Source of the DNA: Helicobacteraceae bacterium
GTDB taxonomy: Bacteria > Campylobacterota > Campylobacteria > Campylobacterales > SZUA-545
Reading direction: 5' to 3'
Length of the DNA stretch: 50,116 nucleotides
Assembly (NCBI GenBank): GCA_031258155.1
Contig: JAIRNH010000059.1
Span: 1 to 50,116, forward strand
The position numbers were made by a program, and so were the translations under genes. The notes under the pieces were generated by a model. That model had not been told where the DNA came from. It saw only the letters and a list, made by a program, of their open reading frames with translations, and made no database searches. This document shows, one piece after another, positions 10,404 through 17,096 of this stretch. Within the stretch, counting starts at the first letter, position 1. Every line of letters begins with the position of its first letter.

Positions 10404-10409
10404 TATAAT
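10404..10409 (+). promoter_or_regulatory. Putative extended -10 of the chemosensory operon
   Basis: TGTTATAAT (TG one base before the hexamer) lies 30 bases before the GTG start of the first gene. It is divergent from the -10 at 10354, so the two transcription units share a roughly 120-base control region. Confidence 0.5.
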
Positions 10410-10438
10410 TAACGGCTAAAGAGGACAAGGAGTGATCT

Positions 10439-11773
10439 GTGGCGATCGTTAAACGAAACGTCCGAGTCGGACGCCCCATATTGCAATGCAAGCTGACGGG
10501 CGGCGATCGGTTGGTTGCGCTTGTCGATTTGCAAACTTCGTGCGCCGTTAAAATACTCGACTCAAAAACGCAGACGGACCTGGGCGGCTTTAGCATACCA
10601 GTATCGCCAAAAAGCCCGCTCGATTTTTTTATTTCCGGTCATTTTGTTTTTGCCCTCGATCGCAATCTTGACGTCGTCGATCTGTATGACCTCGACTCTA
10701 AGAAAAAGGCGCGATCTTTCGATATAAAGCCCTCGCGCGACGGCGAGCCGTCCGCTATCGCGGCGAGCGAGGACGGGACGCGCTTCGCCGTCGGGGATAA
10801 GCGAGGCGTTTTTACGTTCTGGTCAACGGATAACGCGCGACCGATCGCGACGGTTAAAGGATTCGAGCCGATCTCGCTTATCGAGCTTAGCGCAAACGCC
10901 GAGACGGCGGCTATAGCGTTTGAAAACGGCGATATTACCATTGTCAAAACCGCCGATCTCAACAATCAATCGTCGCTCGAATTGCATAAGCGCGGCGTAA
11001 GCGCGCTCAAATTCGTCGGCAACTATCTAATAAGCGGCGATCTAGAAGGGCGCGTAGCCGCATGGAACGTCGAAAACGGTAAATTAGCGCGCGTCTATCC
11101 GATTGGCAAAGGCGCGATCAAAGCGATCGATCGCGCTTTTGACGATCGCGCCGCTATTGTGGCGACCGAAGGCGGCGCGTTGGCTTTGACGGATATAAAC
11201 CGAGATCGGCAGGCGCTGGAGTTGGACATGTTGGGCGAAGGGCTTGTTTCGGCGACCTTCGACGACAAAACGGAGCTCTCCGTCGCGGTAACGTCCTCGT
11301 GGAATATGCTGTTTTTCGATCTGCTAGACGATAAATCGATAGAGATTTTTTTGACGCCTAAAAACGGCGAGGATCGCGTTCGATCAGACGCGATCAAAGT
11401 TATCGTGACCGATGATAGCGTAACGATGCGGAGGGTGATTCAAGCGGCGCTTAAATCGGATTTTCCGTCTTTGGAGATTCTTGAGGCAAGCAACGGCAAA
11501 GAGGCGCTTGAGCTGCTTGAGCAAAATCCCGACGTAAAAATTATGTTCCTAGACTGGAATATGCCTACTATGAGCGGCGAAGCGACGGTGGCGAAGATCA
11601 AGGAGGCGAAAGTCTATCCGAACCTTCTGATCGTTATGGCTACCACCGAAGGCGGGCATGAGAAAGTTATGCAGATGCTTAGAATGGGCGTAGCCGGTTA
11701 TCTGGTCAAGCCTTTTCGCAGGGACGCTATAACCAAAATCACAAGTAAACTGATGGAGCGAATCGCCGTATGA
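10439..11773 (+). CDS. Beta-propeller-like / CheY receiver fusion protein
   Basis: 444 aa. Residues about 10-305 consist of repeated 35-45-residue beta-rich blocks with WD40-like features (AASEDGTRFAVGDKRGVFTFW, near 109-128; NYLISGDLEGRVAAWN, near 195-210; then similar weaker blocks). This suggests a six- or seven-bladed propeller. Residues 318-444 are a complete receiver domain: acidic pair D325/D326, phospho-acceptor D372 in LDWNMP, T402 and K424 in LVKPF. There is no output domain after it. GTG start with AAGGAG. First gene of the operon, overlapping cheV by four bases. The propeller may be a docking or sensing scaffold that localises a CheY-like switch; this is inference. Confidence 0.8.
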   Translation: MAIVKRNVRVGRPILQCKLTGGDRLVALVDLQTSCAVKILDSKTQTDLGGFSIPVSPKSPLDFFISGHFVFALDRNLDVVDLYDLDSKKKARSFDIKPSRDGEPSAIAASEDGTRFAVGDKRGVFTFWSTDNARPIATVKGFEPISLIELSANAETAAIAFENGDITIVKTADLNNQSSLELHKRGVSALKFVGNYLISGDLEGRVAAWNVENGKLARVYPIGKGAIKAIDRAFDDRAAIVATEGGALALTDINRDRQALELDMLGEGLVSATFDDKTELSVAVTSSWNMLFFDLLDDKSIEIFLTPKNGEDRVRSDAIKVIVTDDSVTMRRVIQAALKSDFPSLEILEASNGKEALELLEQNPDVKIMFLDWNMPTMSGEATVAKIKEAKVYPNLLIVMATTEGGHEKVMQMLRMGVAGYLVKPFRRDAITKITSKLMERIAV

Positions 11774-12699
11774 GCGCGGAGCTTGATATTCAAAAAAGCG
11801 TTGAAAAGATGACGGATAGCCATCTAAACAACATTATGCAGCTCGCGGTTTTTTACTCGGCAAACTACGAGATATACGCCGTAAACGTGGCGAAAATACA
11901 AAATTTCGTGATTCTAAGCGAGATTAACATCGTGCCAAACCGCGATCCTAACAGCGTCGTAGTCGGCGTGGCGCAAGTGCGCGACGAGCTGGTAACTTTC
12001 GTCGATCTCGATCGCTGGCTTGGAATGCCAAAACCCGATCTCGCGGATTTTACGGTCGGCGTGGTTTGTAGCGTTAGCCGCCGCAGGATCGGTTTTTTTG
12101 CCCGCGAGATTATCGGCATCGAGGATAAATATAGCTTCGAGCTTAAAATCCCCGATTCGCGCGCGCTTAAAATCCTCTACGTTACCAACATAAAAATCAA
12201 CGGCGAGAATAAACCGTGCGCGGTTTTCGATATAGAGCGGCTCATGTCCGATTGCGGGTTTCCCAAAGAGATGCCGCCGTTTGTTCTCCCGTCCAAAGAG
12301 GAGCTTAAATTTGTCCGCAAAAAAGCTCTGATCGCCGAGGACAGCGTTTCCGCCGCGAAAAAATTAGCCGATTTTTTTGATTCGCTGAACATATCCTACG
12401 AGATCTACTCGGACGGGGCGGAGCTTATATCGCGTTTAGATTCGATAGACGTAAACGAAGTGGGGCTGATCGTAACCGATCTGGAGATGCCCGTGCGCGA
12501 CGGCTATCAGGTAATTGCGCATATCAAGCGAAACGAGCGGCTTAGCGCGTTGCCGGTAGTGGTCAACTCAAGCATGACCAGTAGCGGCGTTGCGGAGAAA
12601 GTCAAACGGCTGGGCGCGGTCGATCATATCGACAAATCGGACACGCACGCGATGTTTAAGCTGGTGGAGCGATATATGAAAGAGAGGCAAAACAAATGA
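11770..12699 (+). CDS. cheV: Chemotaxis coupling protein CheV
   Basis: 309 aa. The N-terminal CheW-like domain spans about residues 25-165, with VGVAQVRDELVTFVDLDRWL as the typical CheW core. The C-terminal receiver spans about 185-305, with E190/D191, phospho-acceptor D237 in VTDLEMP, S267/S268 and K289. CheV couples receptors to CheA and is thought to tune signalling through phosphorylation of its receiver. ATGA overlap with the gene before and after suggests coupled translation and similar expression of the receiver proteins and the receptor. Confidence 0.92.
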   Translation: MSAELDIQKSVEKMTDSHLNNIMQLAVFYSANYEIYAVNVAKIQNFVILSEINIVPNRDPNSVVVGVAQVRDELVTFVDLDRWLGMPKPDLADFTVGVVCSVSRRRIGFFAREIIGIEDKYSFELKIPDSRALKILYVTNIKINGENKPCAVFDIERLMSDCGFPKEMPPFVLPSKEELKFVRKKALIAEDSVSAAKKLADFFDSLNISYEIYSDGAELISRLDSIDVNEVGLIVTDLEMPVRDGYQVIAHIKRNERLSALPVVVNSSMTSSGVAEKVKRLGAVDHIDKSDTHAMFKLVERYMKERQNK

Positions 12700-13100
12700 G
12701 CGAAAACGGCAGAATGATCGCGGTGGACGAAAAGAGCATGCTCGTTTCGGAAACGGATCCAAGCGGGATAGTTAGATATATTAACGACGATCTGATTGAA
12801 ATATCCGGTTTCAGCGAAGCGGAACTCGTGGGAAAACCATACGATTTTATGCTCCATAGCAGCGTGCCGAAATCTATACCGATAGATATGGGGCGGGCGA
12901 TAAACGAGGGCGGGGTATGGAAAGGCTTTGTCAAACACAGGACAAAGGGCGGCGATTACTATTGGGTATTTATGACCGTCTTTCCGATCGACTCCATCAA
13001 CGGCGAAGGTTATCTCGCCGTTCGCACGAGAGCGAACGAGGAGGAGATAGAGCGTTACGAGAAAAAATACGAGCAAATGCGGCTTGAGGAGACGCGATGA
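12696..13100 (+). CDS. Cytoplasmic PAS sensor protein, CetB/Aer-like
   Basis: 134 aa consisting of one PAS domain. The segment SGIVRYINDDLIEISGFSEAEL, then GKPYDFMLHSSVP and WKGFVKHRTKGGDYYWV, matches the Aer-type FAD-binding PAS group, followed by a short helical tail. There is no membrane segment. It overlaps the next gene, a membrane MCP without its own PAS domain, by four bases. This is the split arrangement seen in Campylobacter CetB (PAS) and CetA (MCP), which mediate energy taxis. A flavin cofactor is likely but inferred. Confidence 0.82.
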   Translation: MSENGRMIAVDEKSMLVSETDPSGIVRYINDDLIEISGFSEAELVGKPYDFMLHSSVPKSIPIDMGRAINEGGVWKGFVKHRTKGGDYYWVFMTVFPIDSINGEGYLAVRTRANEEEIERYEKKYEQMRLEETR

Positions 13101-14809
13101 GCCGCGCCGCATCTATTTTTTATTGGTTTTTGATCGCCGCGACGCTGATCGGCTCTTTTGCGTATCTTAGATTGCAGATCAACGACGCGCATAAGATCGC
13201 GCAAGAGGTAGTTTCGCTTGCGCGCGCTAACGCTCGGCTGGAAACCCTTTTGAGCGTCGCGGCGTATATAGGCGACGCGAGCGAAACGGAGAAAAAGACG
13301 ATAGAGGCGCTTGTATCGTGGCTTAACGGGGACGATCCTGCGATAGGCAAGGCGGCTAACGACTATTATGGCGCGTATCTAGAGCGCGTTCAGACGGGCG
13401 CGATCGACGACGGAGCGCAAAGTTTCGCTACGGGCATAACCGCGCTTAGCGTAAAGGCGAAAGCCGCGCTGGAAGCGAAACGAGATAGCTATTACGACGC
13501 GACGTCCGTCGTGGAGTTCGTAGAGGTTATAAGTTTCGGCGTCGTTTTTTTGATCCTGATATTAAAATGGTATTTTGAAACTAAAGCCAACGACGAAACG
13601 CTCGCGCGCGTAGCCGCGTATATAGGGCGCTTTTCAAACTACATCTCCGAGCAGTCAAACGAGTTCGAGCGGCTGACTATGGTAGAAGACTCTATGGGCG
13701 AGATTATCAAAGACATTAACGACGCGGCGGATCGTCTTGAAAAACGCCGCGACGATAACATAAAGGCGCTGGGCAATATCTTGCTGTTCTCCGAGCAGGT
13801 CGGCAAGGGGCATACGGCGCACCGTATGATCGGCAGAAGCGATAACTATCTAAATTACGGGCTTATCAAAGCGTTCAACCGAATGACCCAAAGCATAGAC
13901 GCCGTCATACGCCGCGCGCTTAACGCTCTTGAATCGTATAAAAGCGGCGATTACGCCGTTAAAATTGAAACGGGAGGGCTAGGCGGCGAAGCGCTTCGTT
14001 TGATCGAGGGGATCAATACGCTCGGCGCGGCGTTAAGCGACAATACGACGATGAACTACAAATACGGCATGACGCTAAACGCCGCTTCAAAAGAGCTTGC
14101 CAACGCCGTAGAGAGTCTTTCTAAAATATCGGTTAGTCAAGCCGCGAGCGTAGATCATATCACCGCCGCCGCCAGCGATATTATTCTGCAGATTCAAGAC
14201 ACGACGCGCAAAGCCGAACAGATGGCGGCGTTTGCGATCGAAACGAAAACGGCGGCGCAGAGCGGACTTTCTTTGACGCAGGGAACGGTGACGGCTATGG
14301 AGGAGATCAGCGTCTCCACTTCGCAGATCAAGGAGGCGATCGCCGTGATCGACTCTATCGCCTTTCAAACCAATATTCTATCGCTCAACGCCGCCGTAGA
14401 GGCGGCGACGGCTGGCGAGGCTGGCAAAGGCTTCGCCGTAGTGGCGGGCGAAGTTAGAACGCTCGCGGGCAAAAGCGCGGAGGCGGCAAAAAAGATAAAA
14501 GAACTCGTGGCGCAAACGCAGTTAAAGGCAAACGACGGCATGGCGATCTCCAAAAAGATGATCGAGAGCTTCGATATTCTAAACCGCAAAATCTCGGACA
14601 CCTACGATCTGGTGGACGCCGTTACGAGCGCCGCGCAAGACGAGATGAAAAAAGCCGGAAGCATAAGCGATTCGATTGAAGAGCTTGGCGCGATCAACCG
14701 AAAAAATAGCGAAGCGGCTATAGACACGGGCAAGATTACGCGGCAGGTTTCGGCGCTTGCCGATCGGCTTGTGCGCGTCGCGCGGGATAAGCGCGTATCC
14801 CCGATATGA
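13097..14809 (+). CDS. Methyl-accepting chemotaxis protein, CetA-like partner
   Basis: 570 aa. Transmembrane segments at about residues 7-25 and 138-157 enclose a modest periplasmic helical region. A long cytoplasmic helical part follows. The conserved MCP tip ([20 protein letters not shown] continuing to [12 protein letters not shown]) lies at about 415-453. No PAS domain and no C-terminal CheR-docking pentapeptide were seen. It lies directly after the PAS gene and before cheA. Inferred to carry the PAS protein's signal to the CheA encoded next. Confidence 0.88.
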   Translation: MSRAASIFYWFLIAATLIGSFAYLRLQINDAHKIAQEVVSLARANARLETLLSVAAYIGDASETEKKTIEALVSWLNGDDPAIGKAANDYYGAYLERVQTGAIDDGAQSFATGITALSVKAKAALEAKRDSYYDATSVVEFVEVISFGVVFLILILKWYFETKANDETLARVAAYIGRFSNYISEQSNEFERLTMVEDSMGEIIKDINDAADRLEKRRDDNIKALGNILLFSEQVGKGHTAHRMIGRSDNYLNYGLIKAFNRMTQSIDAVIRRALNALESYKSGDYAVKIETGGLGGEALRLIEGINTLGAALSDNTTMNYKYGMTLNAASKELANAVESLSKISVSQAASVDHITAAASDIILQIQDTTRKAEQMAAFAIETKTAAQSGLSLTQGTVTAMEEISVSTSQIKEAIAVIDSIAFQTNILSLNAAVEAATAGEAGKGFAVVAGEVRTLAGKSAEAAKKIKELVAQTQLKANDGMAISKKMIESFDILNRKISDTYDLVDAVTSAAQDEMKKAGSISDSIEELGAINRKNSEAAIDTGKITRQVSALADRLVRVARDKRVSPI

Positions 14810-14826
14810 CGCGGTAAGGTTAGGCG

Positions 14827-16665
14827 ATGACCGAATATCAATCGCTGTTTTTGGAGGAGGCGAGCGAGCTTTTCGCAAACGCCTACGATTGCCTGTTAAA
14901 CGCCGAAGAGAACGACTATTTAGATTCGCAAGCCATAGGCGAACTGTTTCGCATTCTGCACACGATTAAAGGCGGCGGCGGAAGCGTTGATTTTGATCGT
15001 CTTAGCCGATACGCGCACGGTTTGGAGAATATGCTCTCCTTGCTGCGCGACGGTAAAATCGCCTATCAAAGCGGCATGGCGGAATTTCTTGTCGATAGCT
15101 TTGATCAGATGCAGGAGATTTTGAAGGCGGAATCGCAAAACAGGATCGATAACGCCGAATACAATATCAAGCTAGAACGGCTCGATCGCAGGGCGCGGGA
15201 GTATATAGGCGAAAAATCGGACGCGGCGCGAGACGACAAGGCGTTAGACGCGGACGAGGGATTCGCGCTTTTCGATCCCGCCCAGATCGACGCCGCTCAA
15301 AATCCCGCCGCCGACAAGAACGACGAAATATACGCGCAAGACGTAACCAGCGAGGGATTCGCGCTTTTCGATCCCGCCCAAATTGAAGCGGCGCAGACTC
15401 ATGCCGAGCAAAATCCCGCCGCCGATAATCCTTCCGCGCCGCCGCCAGAAAGCGGCGACAAAACCAAAAGCGCGAGTATTCGCGTCGATCTGGACAAAAT
15501 CGATCTGCTACTTAACCGCGTGGGCGAGCTGGTGATCACCAACTCTATGCTTAGCCGCTTCTCCGAGCGGCTGGAATCCAAAGCCGATCGCGACGAGATG
15601 GGCGAAAGGTTAGGACAGCTAACGCGGCATATCAGGGCGCTGCAGGACGCGGTGATGGGCGTTCGTATGATTCCAATAGAGCATATATACGCAAAACTGC
15701 CGAAAATCGCGCGCGATATAGCAAAAAAGCTAGGCAAGCGAGCGCGGCTAGTCTATAGCGGCGAGAACGTCGAAATAGACAAGATGATAATCGAGGGACT
15801 AAACGATCCGCTTATGCACATTATCCGCAACGCGTTAGATCACGGACTCGAGGATCCCGCCGCGCGCGAAGCCGCCGGCAAGAATCCGGTCGGCTCGGTA
15901 AGCGTTTCCGCCGCGCAGGAAAACGGGCAGATCGTAATTATAATCAAAGACGACGGGCGCGGAATCGACACGCTCAAAGTGGTGTCCAAAGCGATCGAGC
16001 ATAAGCTAATATCCGCCAATCAAGCCTTAAGAATGAGCGACGACGACAAAAACGATCTGGTCTTTATGGCGGGGCTTACCACCGCCGACGCGGTAACCGA
16101 TATTTCGGGGCGCGGCGTCGGTATGGACGTGGCGCGCAACAATATAGCGAAGCTCGGCGGCATCGTCAGGGTCAAATCGCAAAAAGGCGTCGGGACAAGC
16201 GTAACCATCACGCTTCCGCTTACGCTCGCGATCTTGGACGGCTTAAACGTAAGCGTGGGCGATCATCGATATATCCTGCCGCTTTCGTCGGTAGTCGAGT
16301 CGTTGCAACCGCGCCAGTCCATGATCCAATCAAACGGCGACGGAAGTAAAACTACGCTTTTGCTCAGAGAAAGCTTTATTCCCATTTTGGAGCTTTATTC
16401 GCTGTTTAACATCAAGCCAAAGTTCGTCGACCCGTCGCTGGGCATGCTGATCGTGGTGCGCGCGGGCGGCGAGCGAATCGCGCTGTTTGTGGATAGTTTC
16501 GGCGCGCAGCAACAGGTCGTCGTTAAATCGCTGGAGAAAAATTTTAGGCGCGTAGGCGGGATTGGCGGCGCGACGGTGCAGGGCGACGGCGAGGTTGTTT
16601 TGATCCTCGATCCGCTTGGGCTGGTCGAAAAAGAGCGCGAACTGCGGCAAACGAGAACGCGATGA
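14827..16665 (+). CDS. cheA: Chemotaxis histidine kinase CheA (no receiver domain)
   Basis: 612 aa. P1 Hpt domain with phospho-accepting H45 in HTIKGGGG. Linker at about 130-215, then P3 dimerisation, P4 ATPase (N-box HIIRNALDHGLED; G boxes DDGRGID and GRGVGMDV; GVGTSVTITLPLTLAI) and P5 CheW-like domain to the end. There is no C-terminal receiver, unlike the CheAY fusions usual in Helicobacter and Campylobacter. The linker holds two near-identical copies of EGFALFDPAQI.AAQ (residues 144 and 176) in place of a recognisable P2 domain. ATG start 17 bases after the MCP stop; overlaps cheW by four bases. Confidence 0.93.
   Translation: MTEYQSLFLEEASELFANAYDCLLNAEENDYLDSQAIGELFRILHTIKGGGGSVDFDRLSRYAHGLENMLSLLRDGKIAYQSGMAEFLVDSFDQMQEILKAESQNRIDNAEYNIKLERLDRRAREYIGEKSDAARDDKALDADEGFALFDPAQIDAAQNPAADKNDEIYAQDVTSEGFALFDPAQIEAAQTHAEQNPAADNPSAPPPESGDKTKSASIRVDLDKIDLLLNRVGELVITNSMLSRFSERLESKADRDEMGERLGQLTRHIRALQDAVMGVRMIPIEHIYAKLPKIARDIAKKLGKRARLVYSGENVEIDKMIIEGLNDPLMHIIRNALDHGLEDPAAREAAGKNPVGSVSVSAAQENGQIVIIIKDDGRGIDTLKVVSKAIEHKLISANQALRMSDDDKNDLVFMAGLTTADAVTDISGRGVGMDVARNNIAKLGGIVRVKSQKGVGTSVTITLPLTLAILDGLNVSVGDHRYILPLSSVVESLQPRQSMIQSNGDGSKTTLLLRESFIPILELYSLFNIKPKFVDPSLGMLIVVRAGGERIALFVDSFGAQQQVVVKSLEKNFRRVGGIGGATVQGDGEVVLILDPLGLVEKERELRQTRTR
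15256..15390 (+). repeat. In-frame duplicated linker motif in cheA
   Basis: Two nearly identical stretches of about 34 bases start at 15256 and 15352, exactly 96 bases (32 codons) apart. Both encode EGFALFDPAQI, followed by similar Ala/Gln/Pro-rich tails ending NPAAD. The spacing keeps the reading frame, so this is an internal peptide duplication between P1 and P3. Confidence 0.8.
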
Positions 16666-17096
16666 AAGAGGAATTTCTGATTTTCAGAATGTTCGGCATT
16701 CTATACGGCGCGAGGCTAAGCAGAGTGCGCGAAATCATAACCTACGCGGGCAAGATCACGGCGCTGCCCAACAATCCCGCTTGGGTGCTAGGGGTAATCA
16801 ATATGCGCGGCGAGGTTACGCCCGTGATCGATTTTCGGCGCAAATTTTCCGCGATCGATACGGTTTACGACGAAGAAACTATTATAGTGGCTATGAAACT
16901 GCGCAACGGGCGCGTGATGGCGATCGTAGCCGATAGTATCGAAACAATCGCGGAAATCGACCCCGCCGATCTGCAAGCCGCGTCGGATATGGGAAGCGGA
17001 CTTGATCCGCGCTGTTTGGAAGGTTTGGCGCAATTAAACGGCGAGATGGTCAGCGTTATCAATATAGACGTTATGCTCGATATAAACGAAATTTAG
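16662..17096 (+). CDS. cheW: Chemotaxis adaptor CheW
   Basis: 144 aa single CheW domain: LPNNPAWVLGVINMRGEVTPVIDFR near residues 36-60 is the typical core, with VADSIETIAEID and LNGEMVSVINIDVML toward the end. It bridges receptors and CheA. The ATG overlaps the cheA stop (ATGA). Last gene of the six-gene operon. A GC-rich inverted sequence (GCGGCG ... CGCGATCGCCGC) right after the stop could act as a weak terminator but has no T-run. Confidence 0.92.
   Translation: MKEEFLIFRMFGILYGARLSRVREIITYAGKITALPNNPAWVLGVINMRGEVTPVIDFRRKFSAIDTVYDEETIIVAMKLRNGRVMAIVADSIETIAEIDPADLQAASDMGSGLDPRCLEGLAQLNGEMVSVINIDVMLDINEI

Follow-up and report, generated by a model that had tools for sequence, protein, structure and literature searches.

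A CheY-like receiver fused to a WD40 propeller heads a hybrid chemosensory operon in Campylobacterales

CheY is the textbook small, diffusible messenger. In Campylobacterota, the CheYs that bind the flagellar motor are marked by W58, K91 and K119, together with a Y106–Thr pair (PMC9321776), and a survey of the phylum observed that the parts of its chemosensory classes rarely mix (PMC9239204). Two of these classes matter here: F7, with the cluster cheYARDB as in Arcobacter, and F3, with cheVAW and a receiver on CheA. On the input side, the flavin contacts of Aer include His53, Asn85 and Arg115 (PMC9668731), and in the CetB–CetA pair an Aer-like PAS protein is separate from the receptor (PMC2628428). 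The cyanobacterial PATAN-REC proteins (PixG, PixE, LsiR) carry an N-terminal binding module and a C-terminal receiver and are tied to photoreceptors or to chemotaxis-like systems; PixE, whose presumed binding partner is PilB1, is a precedent for this architecture acting on pili (PMC7690835).

The window analyzed here is a stretch of 50,116 nt, positions 1 to 50,116 of contig JAIRNH010000059.1, from a Campylobacterales genome of 71 contigs and 1.94 Mb. The nearest named relative of the locus is the Helicobacteraceae MAG Im510_bin14, and the isolate name suggests that this relative of Helicobacter probably lived in a termite gut. An operon at 10439–17096 holds, in this order, a fusion gene, cheV, a PAS gene, a chemoreceptor gene (MCP), cheA and cheW. 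The fusion gene (10439–11773, +) encodes 444 aa from a GTG start in a single uninterrupted open reading frame without internal stop, with a ribosome-binding site AAGGAG (10427–10432, +) 6 nt upstream of the start. A TATAAT seen by eye 29 nt upstream of the start codon (10404–10409, +) is a possible −10 element; a consensus promoter scan upstream of the operon did not report it. As the first-pass annotation had stated, the fusion is the first gene of the operon and is coupled to cheV (11770–12699, +; CheW domain and receiver) by a 4-nt ATGA overlap. An assembly or frameshift artefact as the source of the fusion was ruled out, the frame being open in one piece in 12 genomes, and so was a chance fusion, because proteins with the identical domain order exist in further genera and families, several of each kind counted together.

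At the structural level, Pfam, AlphaFold2 and Foldseek agree on the N-terminal part, where about 300 residues of WD40-like repeats had been proposed: it is a seven-bladed WD40 propeller (residues 14–306; 10478–11356, +). Residues 65–293 match many WD40 propeller models in Pfam (best E 2.9e-14), most of these matches scoring below the curated cut-off of the respective family. The AlphaFold2 model, built from two sequences only, presents four-stranded blades at 14–54, 61–95, 104–139, 145–181, 187–221 and 227–251 and a low-confidence blade 7 within 255–306 (modelled at 272–294); pLDDT is mostly 70–90 over residues about 14–225 and lower beyond. Searched against the PDB with Foldseek, this model retrieved WD40 structures throughout (E about 1e-14, TM about 0.7). 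A WD40 propeller is marked by seven or eight four-stranded blades and by WD40 profile similarity; the N-terminal part has both, with seven blades of which the last is at low confidence. A quinoprotein-like identity was rejected, since the PQQ models in Pfam stay near noise (E 0.26) and WD40 models are clearly better.

A profile of the whole fusion family matches CheY and WD40 structures alike, and no family model spans both propeller and receiver. The first-pass annotation knew of no standard family with this order, and we can add that the literature searched contained no description of WD40–receiver fusions in chemosensory systems and that two surveys of the chemosensory classes of the phylum do not mention WD40. 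The propeller–receiver arrangement is conserved and, it appears, undescribed; proteins with WD40 and receiver domains may occur elsewhere in bacteria.

Among 397 genomes of the phylum, the best other matches of the propeller profile were proteins of about 710 aa with an N-terminal WD40 propeller. This propeller is homologous to the fused one, the two aligning end to end (hhalign probability 99.7, E 1e-25), and several genomes in the window's family also encode members of the about 710-aa family. The two proteins differ in what follows: about 400 residues that look helical by eye and matched no Pfam family, where the fusion protein has its receiver. Given this homology to a Campylobacterota family, the fused propeller is probably home-grown within the phylum. 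Members of the about 710-aa family are found at L130:304–2430 (−), L131:1492–3633 (+) and L146:1501–3591 (+), and in the host genome at C33:2103–4022 and C43:12476–13783. Some genomes hold multiple paralogues, ilv genes adjoin in some, and the layout of the family resembles that of eukaryotic coat proteins.

In some hybrid kinases, propellers have a sensory role, and this one changes faster than its receiver: at equal divergence, identity is 34–67% in the propeller vs. 63–86% in the receiver. The propeller could accordingly gate the receiver by sensing a signal or binding a ligand, making the fusion a one-protein integrator rather than a docked regulator. We find this very improbable. The propeller is of the WD40 type, no signal peptide or membrane segment was seen in the fusion sequence –so that the protein is presumably cytoplasmic–, and its nearest relatives are WD40 plus helical-looking proteins, a layout typical of protein-binding scaffolds.

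The remainder of the protein is what the first reading took it to be, a complete receiver with all phosphorylation residues and nothing following. The CheY-like receiver spans residues 321–434 (11399–11740, +; Pfam Response_reg, E 4.8e-20) and contains the phospho-acceptor D372 (11552–11554, +), T402 (11642–11644, +) and K424 (11708–11710, +); Pfam identified no DNA-binding or enzyme domain C-terminal to it. D325, D326, D372, T402 and K424 are invariant in 12/12 homologues. All 12 fused receivers keep the equivalents of CheY D12, D13, D57, T87, K109, W58 and Y106, and with them the CheY-type phosphorylation set of acidic pair, phospho-acceptor Asp, switch Thr and Lys. Among PDB structures, H. 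pylori CheY1 matches the receiver best (E 6.8e-24). Like the stand-alone CheYs of H. pylori (CheY1) and E. coli, the fusion has a complete CheY-type receiver with no effector domain following and is encoded alongside cheA, cheW and cheV. Unlike them, it is not a single-domain regulator, since about 310 residues of WD40 propeller stand in front, and the fused receivers are without K119 and mostly without a lysine at 91/92. The position of K119 holds I, L or V in 12/12 fused receivers vs. K in 20/20 F3-CheYs, and a lysine at 91/92 is present in 2/12 vs. 20/20. Judged by these residues, the motor-binding signature (F3 type) is incomplete in the fused receivers, with W58, T87 and Y106 kept; in the stand-alone CheYs of another family (f7), W58 is missing too.

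The signature bears on whether the fusion could be a motor co-regulator, that is, a CheY working on the flagellar switch beside F3-CheY, with its propeller keeping it at the C-ring, and the energy-taxis array thereby biasing swimming. We consider this unlikely. FliM is encoded in 13/13 genomes tested, the receiver is nearest to H. pylori CheY1 structures with W58 and the T87–Y106 pair in place, and C. jejuni CheO, an extra protein on rotor and array, offers a precedent (PMC9665402). However, the positions changed in the fused receivers, K119 in all and 91/92 in most, are among those named, with W58, as kept when a CheY of the phylum binds the motor, and an additional class that has just one or two receptors has been argued to be an unlikely main navigator (PMC9321776). 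The motor had been one of the docking sites proposed in the first-pass annotation; the lost K119 and mostly lost 91/92 lysine weaken that part of the proposal, and the kept W58, T87 and Y106 speak for it.

Regarding the input of the operon, cheV, the PAS gene and the MCP gene follow one another with 4-nt start/stop overlaps, as do cheA and cheW, and a 17-nt gap separates the MCP gene from cheA. The PAS gene (12696–13100, +) encodes a single PAS protein of the Aer or CetB kind, whose best PDB match, with a supporting alignment, is the PAS domain of E. coli Aer (8dik, E 4.3e-24). As in the bipartite Aer/CetA–CetB receptors, a separate Aer-like PAS gene adjoins the receptor gene; the difference lies in the flavin site, where two Aer contacts are changed in the window protein. 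In what we take to be the Aer residue numbering, His53 is replaced by Tyr and Asn85 by His, and the Arg115 equivalent is invariant in the aligned PAS proteins. With two contacts different and Arg115 kept, redox input via the PAS protein is plausible at most.

The chemoreceptor (13097–14809, +) has a signalling domain of 36-heptad length: it aligns without gaps with E. coli Tsr, a 36H receptor, over residues 347–558, and this is the length found in the F7 class. Ahead of the signalling domain are two likely membrane segments, judged by eye, and a HAMP domain that Pfam matches only weakly (E 0.041). The predicted topology is fitting for a CetA-like partner of the PAS protein.

The CheA of the operon (14827–16665, +) has one Hpt, dimerisation, ATPase and CheW domains, and neither a receiver nor a Pfam P2 domain; cheW (16662–17096, +) was assigned from its open reading frame and Pfam. 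The CheAs of distant operons (L039, L040, L041) have two Hpt domains vs. one in the window CheA. In the P1–P3 linker of the latter, a GFALFD motif occurs twice (15259–15276 and 15355–15372, both +). GFxLFD is also present in one to three copies, at the place that a P2 domain would occupy, in the CheA linkers of L040, L041, L069, L031 and L037, and variants (GYELF, AFELF, DFGFFD) appear in relatives and in some F7 CheAs. Receivers may use the motif as a linear docking site. We rejected it as the ligand of the propeller, as it is also present where CheY is unfused, and for the same reason a general receiver-docking motif is the more likely reading.

For the signalling class, the CheAs of the fused and homologous operons group in a single clade (SH-aLRT 98), sister to F7 CheAs from the phylum, and the 36-heptad receptor is a further likeness to F7. 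The differences are that the operon has cheV and a PAS gene, and that the fused receiver falls apart from F7-CheY in the receiver tree. Moreover, cheR, cheB and cheD are absent from the fused and homologous operons, which thus do not have the F7 cluster. In the operon, an F7-related kinase is thus found together with CheV and with a CheY that differs from F7-CheY, against the pattern of rare mixing (PMC9239204). It is not of the F3 class either, since its CheA ends in a CheW domain rather than a receiver. The host genome encodes only one other CheA, which is 33% identical to the window CheA. This 771-aa protein has a C-terminal receiver match and adjoins its own cheV and cheW on contig C19; by these sequence features its system is F3-like, with its own CheY. 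F3-CheY is the likely regulator of the swimming motor.

To follow the fusion across relatives, we compared the locus in related genomes. Full-length relatives are present in 6/6 genus-mates (45–73% identity) and in 2/3 members of genus g6 (43% identity). In the third, G013, a contig end falls inside the operon, and the missing fusion there is uninformative. Among 299 Campylobacterales genomes, we counted 12 copies of full length and a further one, in G186, that is cut off by the start of its contig; these copies are spread over the window's family, f4, f13 and f7. A few more fusions may lie among several weaker matches of 300–480 aa to the propeller profile in the phylum. The fusion gene lies directly before cheV at every readable orthologous locus. 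Members of the window's genus and of g6 share the gene order, save G005, and the PAS gene is missing from distant loci. Comparisons inside the genus and with g6 gave dN values far lower than dS for both domains, indicating purifying selection.

The homologous operon of f7 (cheV, MCP, cheA, cheW) has no propeller gene and encodes, after cheW, a stand-alone CheY about 130 aa long; in several f7 genomes, PAS and MCP genes precede it. In the receiver tree, the fused receivers and these stand-alone CheYs are joined (100/98), apart from F3-CheY and F7-CheY, and they group with chemotaxis CheY receivers rather than with the receivers of CheV or CheA. On this phylogeny, the fused protein is the CheY that belongs to the operon, to which a propeller has been added, or from which it has been lost in operons without one; the strongest evidence is that a stand-alone CheY, the nearest relative of the fused receiver, fills the slot in f7. 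The direction of the change may be read either way, as an old fusion lost in f7 or as a later gain of the fusion. Without G008, the fused receivers form one clade (97/84); with G008 added, they need two changes, a single clade being unrejected (p-AU 0.41), and in the CheA tree the unfused f7 operons fall among the fused ones.

The same slot argues against a phosphate sink or array scaffold, in which the receiver would drain phosphate from CheA in the manner of an adaptation receiver, the propeller would keep it bound to the array, and the true output would be F3-CheY or CheV. The fusion does head the operon coupled to cheV, which already bears a receiver, and the operon is without stand-alone cheY, cheB or cheR. 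However, homologous operons hold a small stand-alone CheY in the slot, fused operons encode no other CheY, and the F3 CheA and the window CheA are only 33% alike. We judge a sink or scaffold role to be quite improbable.

The earlier reading of the protein as a scaffolded response regulator fits with the fusion replacing the operon's stand-alone CheY. We class the fusion as a CheY that bears a new, putative docking domain and is encoded in a hybrid operon. We lean, with some reserve, towards its being the dedicated output CheY of a second chemosensory pathway, docked by its propeller at a target or scaffold and localised rather than diffusing. In the mechanism we propose, the split Aer-type receptor (PAS protein and MCP) would report the energy or redox state of the cell to CheA, held by CheW and CheV, and CheA would transfer phosphate to D372. 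The WD40 propeller would serve as a permanent dock, keeping CheY at the target or on a scaffold, and phosphorylation would alter the alpha4-beta5-alpha5 face of the receiver so that it engages or releases a second surface at the dock. The fusion would thus be a localised CheY instead of a freely diffusing messenger.

As to the target, our guess is that the machinery of type IV pili, or a different structure at the cell pole, would be likelier than the canonical FliM switch. We lean to a non-flagellar target because the genome has an F3-CheY and the fused receivers lack part of the motor-binding residues; that W58 and Y106/T87, which likewise belong to the FliM interface, are kept counts against it. 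ATPases of the type IV pilus type (PilB/GspE, PilT) are encoded in 13/13 genomes tested, as is FliM, and therefore presence cannot separate pilus from motor. Co-occurrence was dropped as evidence for a pilus target, PilT being found in 227/299 genomes of the order and hence uninformative. The PATAN-REC proteins share the module–receiver layout; their N-terminal domain is PATAN and that of the fusion a WD40 propeller, and no PATAN domain was among the Pfam matches shown for the fusion N-terminus, where WD40 models matched. A fuller proposal, in which the fusion is a so far undescribed kind of CheY, tethered and WD40-docked, that belongs to a hybrid class (F7-related CheA, 36H receptor, CheV, split Aer receptor) and directs the type IV pili or some other polar machine outside the flagellum, with a propeller recruited from a phylum-wide family of WD40 plus helical-looking proteins, is possible and, in our estimate, doubtful.

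A conserved lineage with CheY welded to a protein-binding propeller in place of the free form is a natural test of a localised CheY, both of its ability to function and of the target on which it acts. The fusion may let the cell steer something besides, or instead of, the swimming motor, and the propeller is a ready-made bait for the target of a second Campylobacterota chemosensory system.

Finally, some loci of relatives present further features. In G005, the operon CheA is on another contig (L112:6925–9375, −; 816 aa) and has an additional CheW-like domain fused to it; the WD40–CheY gene remains with cheV, the PAS gene and the MCP gene. Downstream of the stand-alone CheY, f7 genomes have a conserved gene encoding a receiver protein of about 560–570 aa (L076:8487–10211, L078:6882–8570, L124:2807–4495) as well as one for a protein of about 890 aa with an MCP-like stretch; both are perhaps part of the same system.
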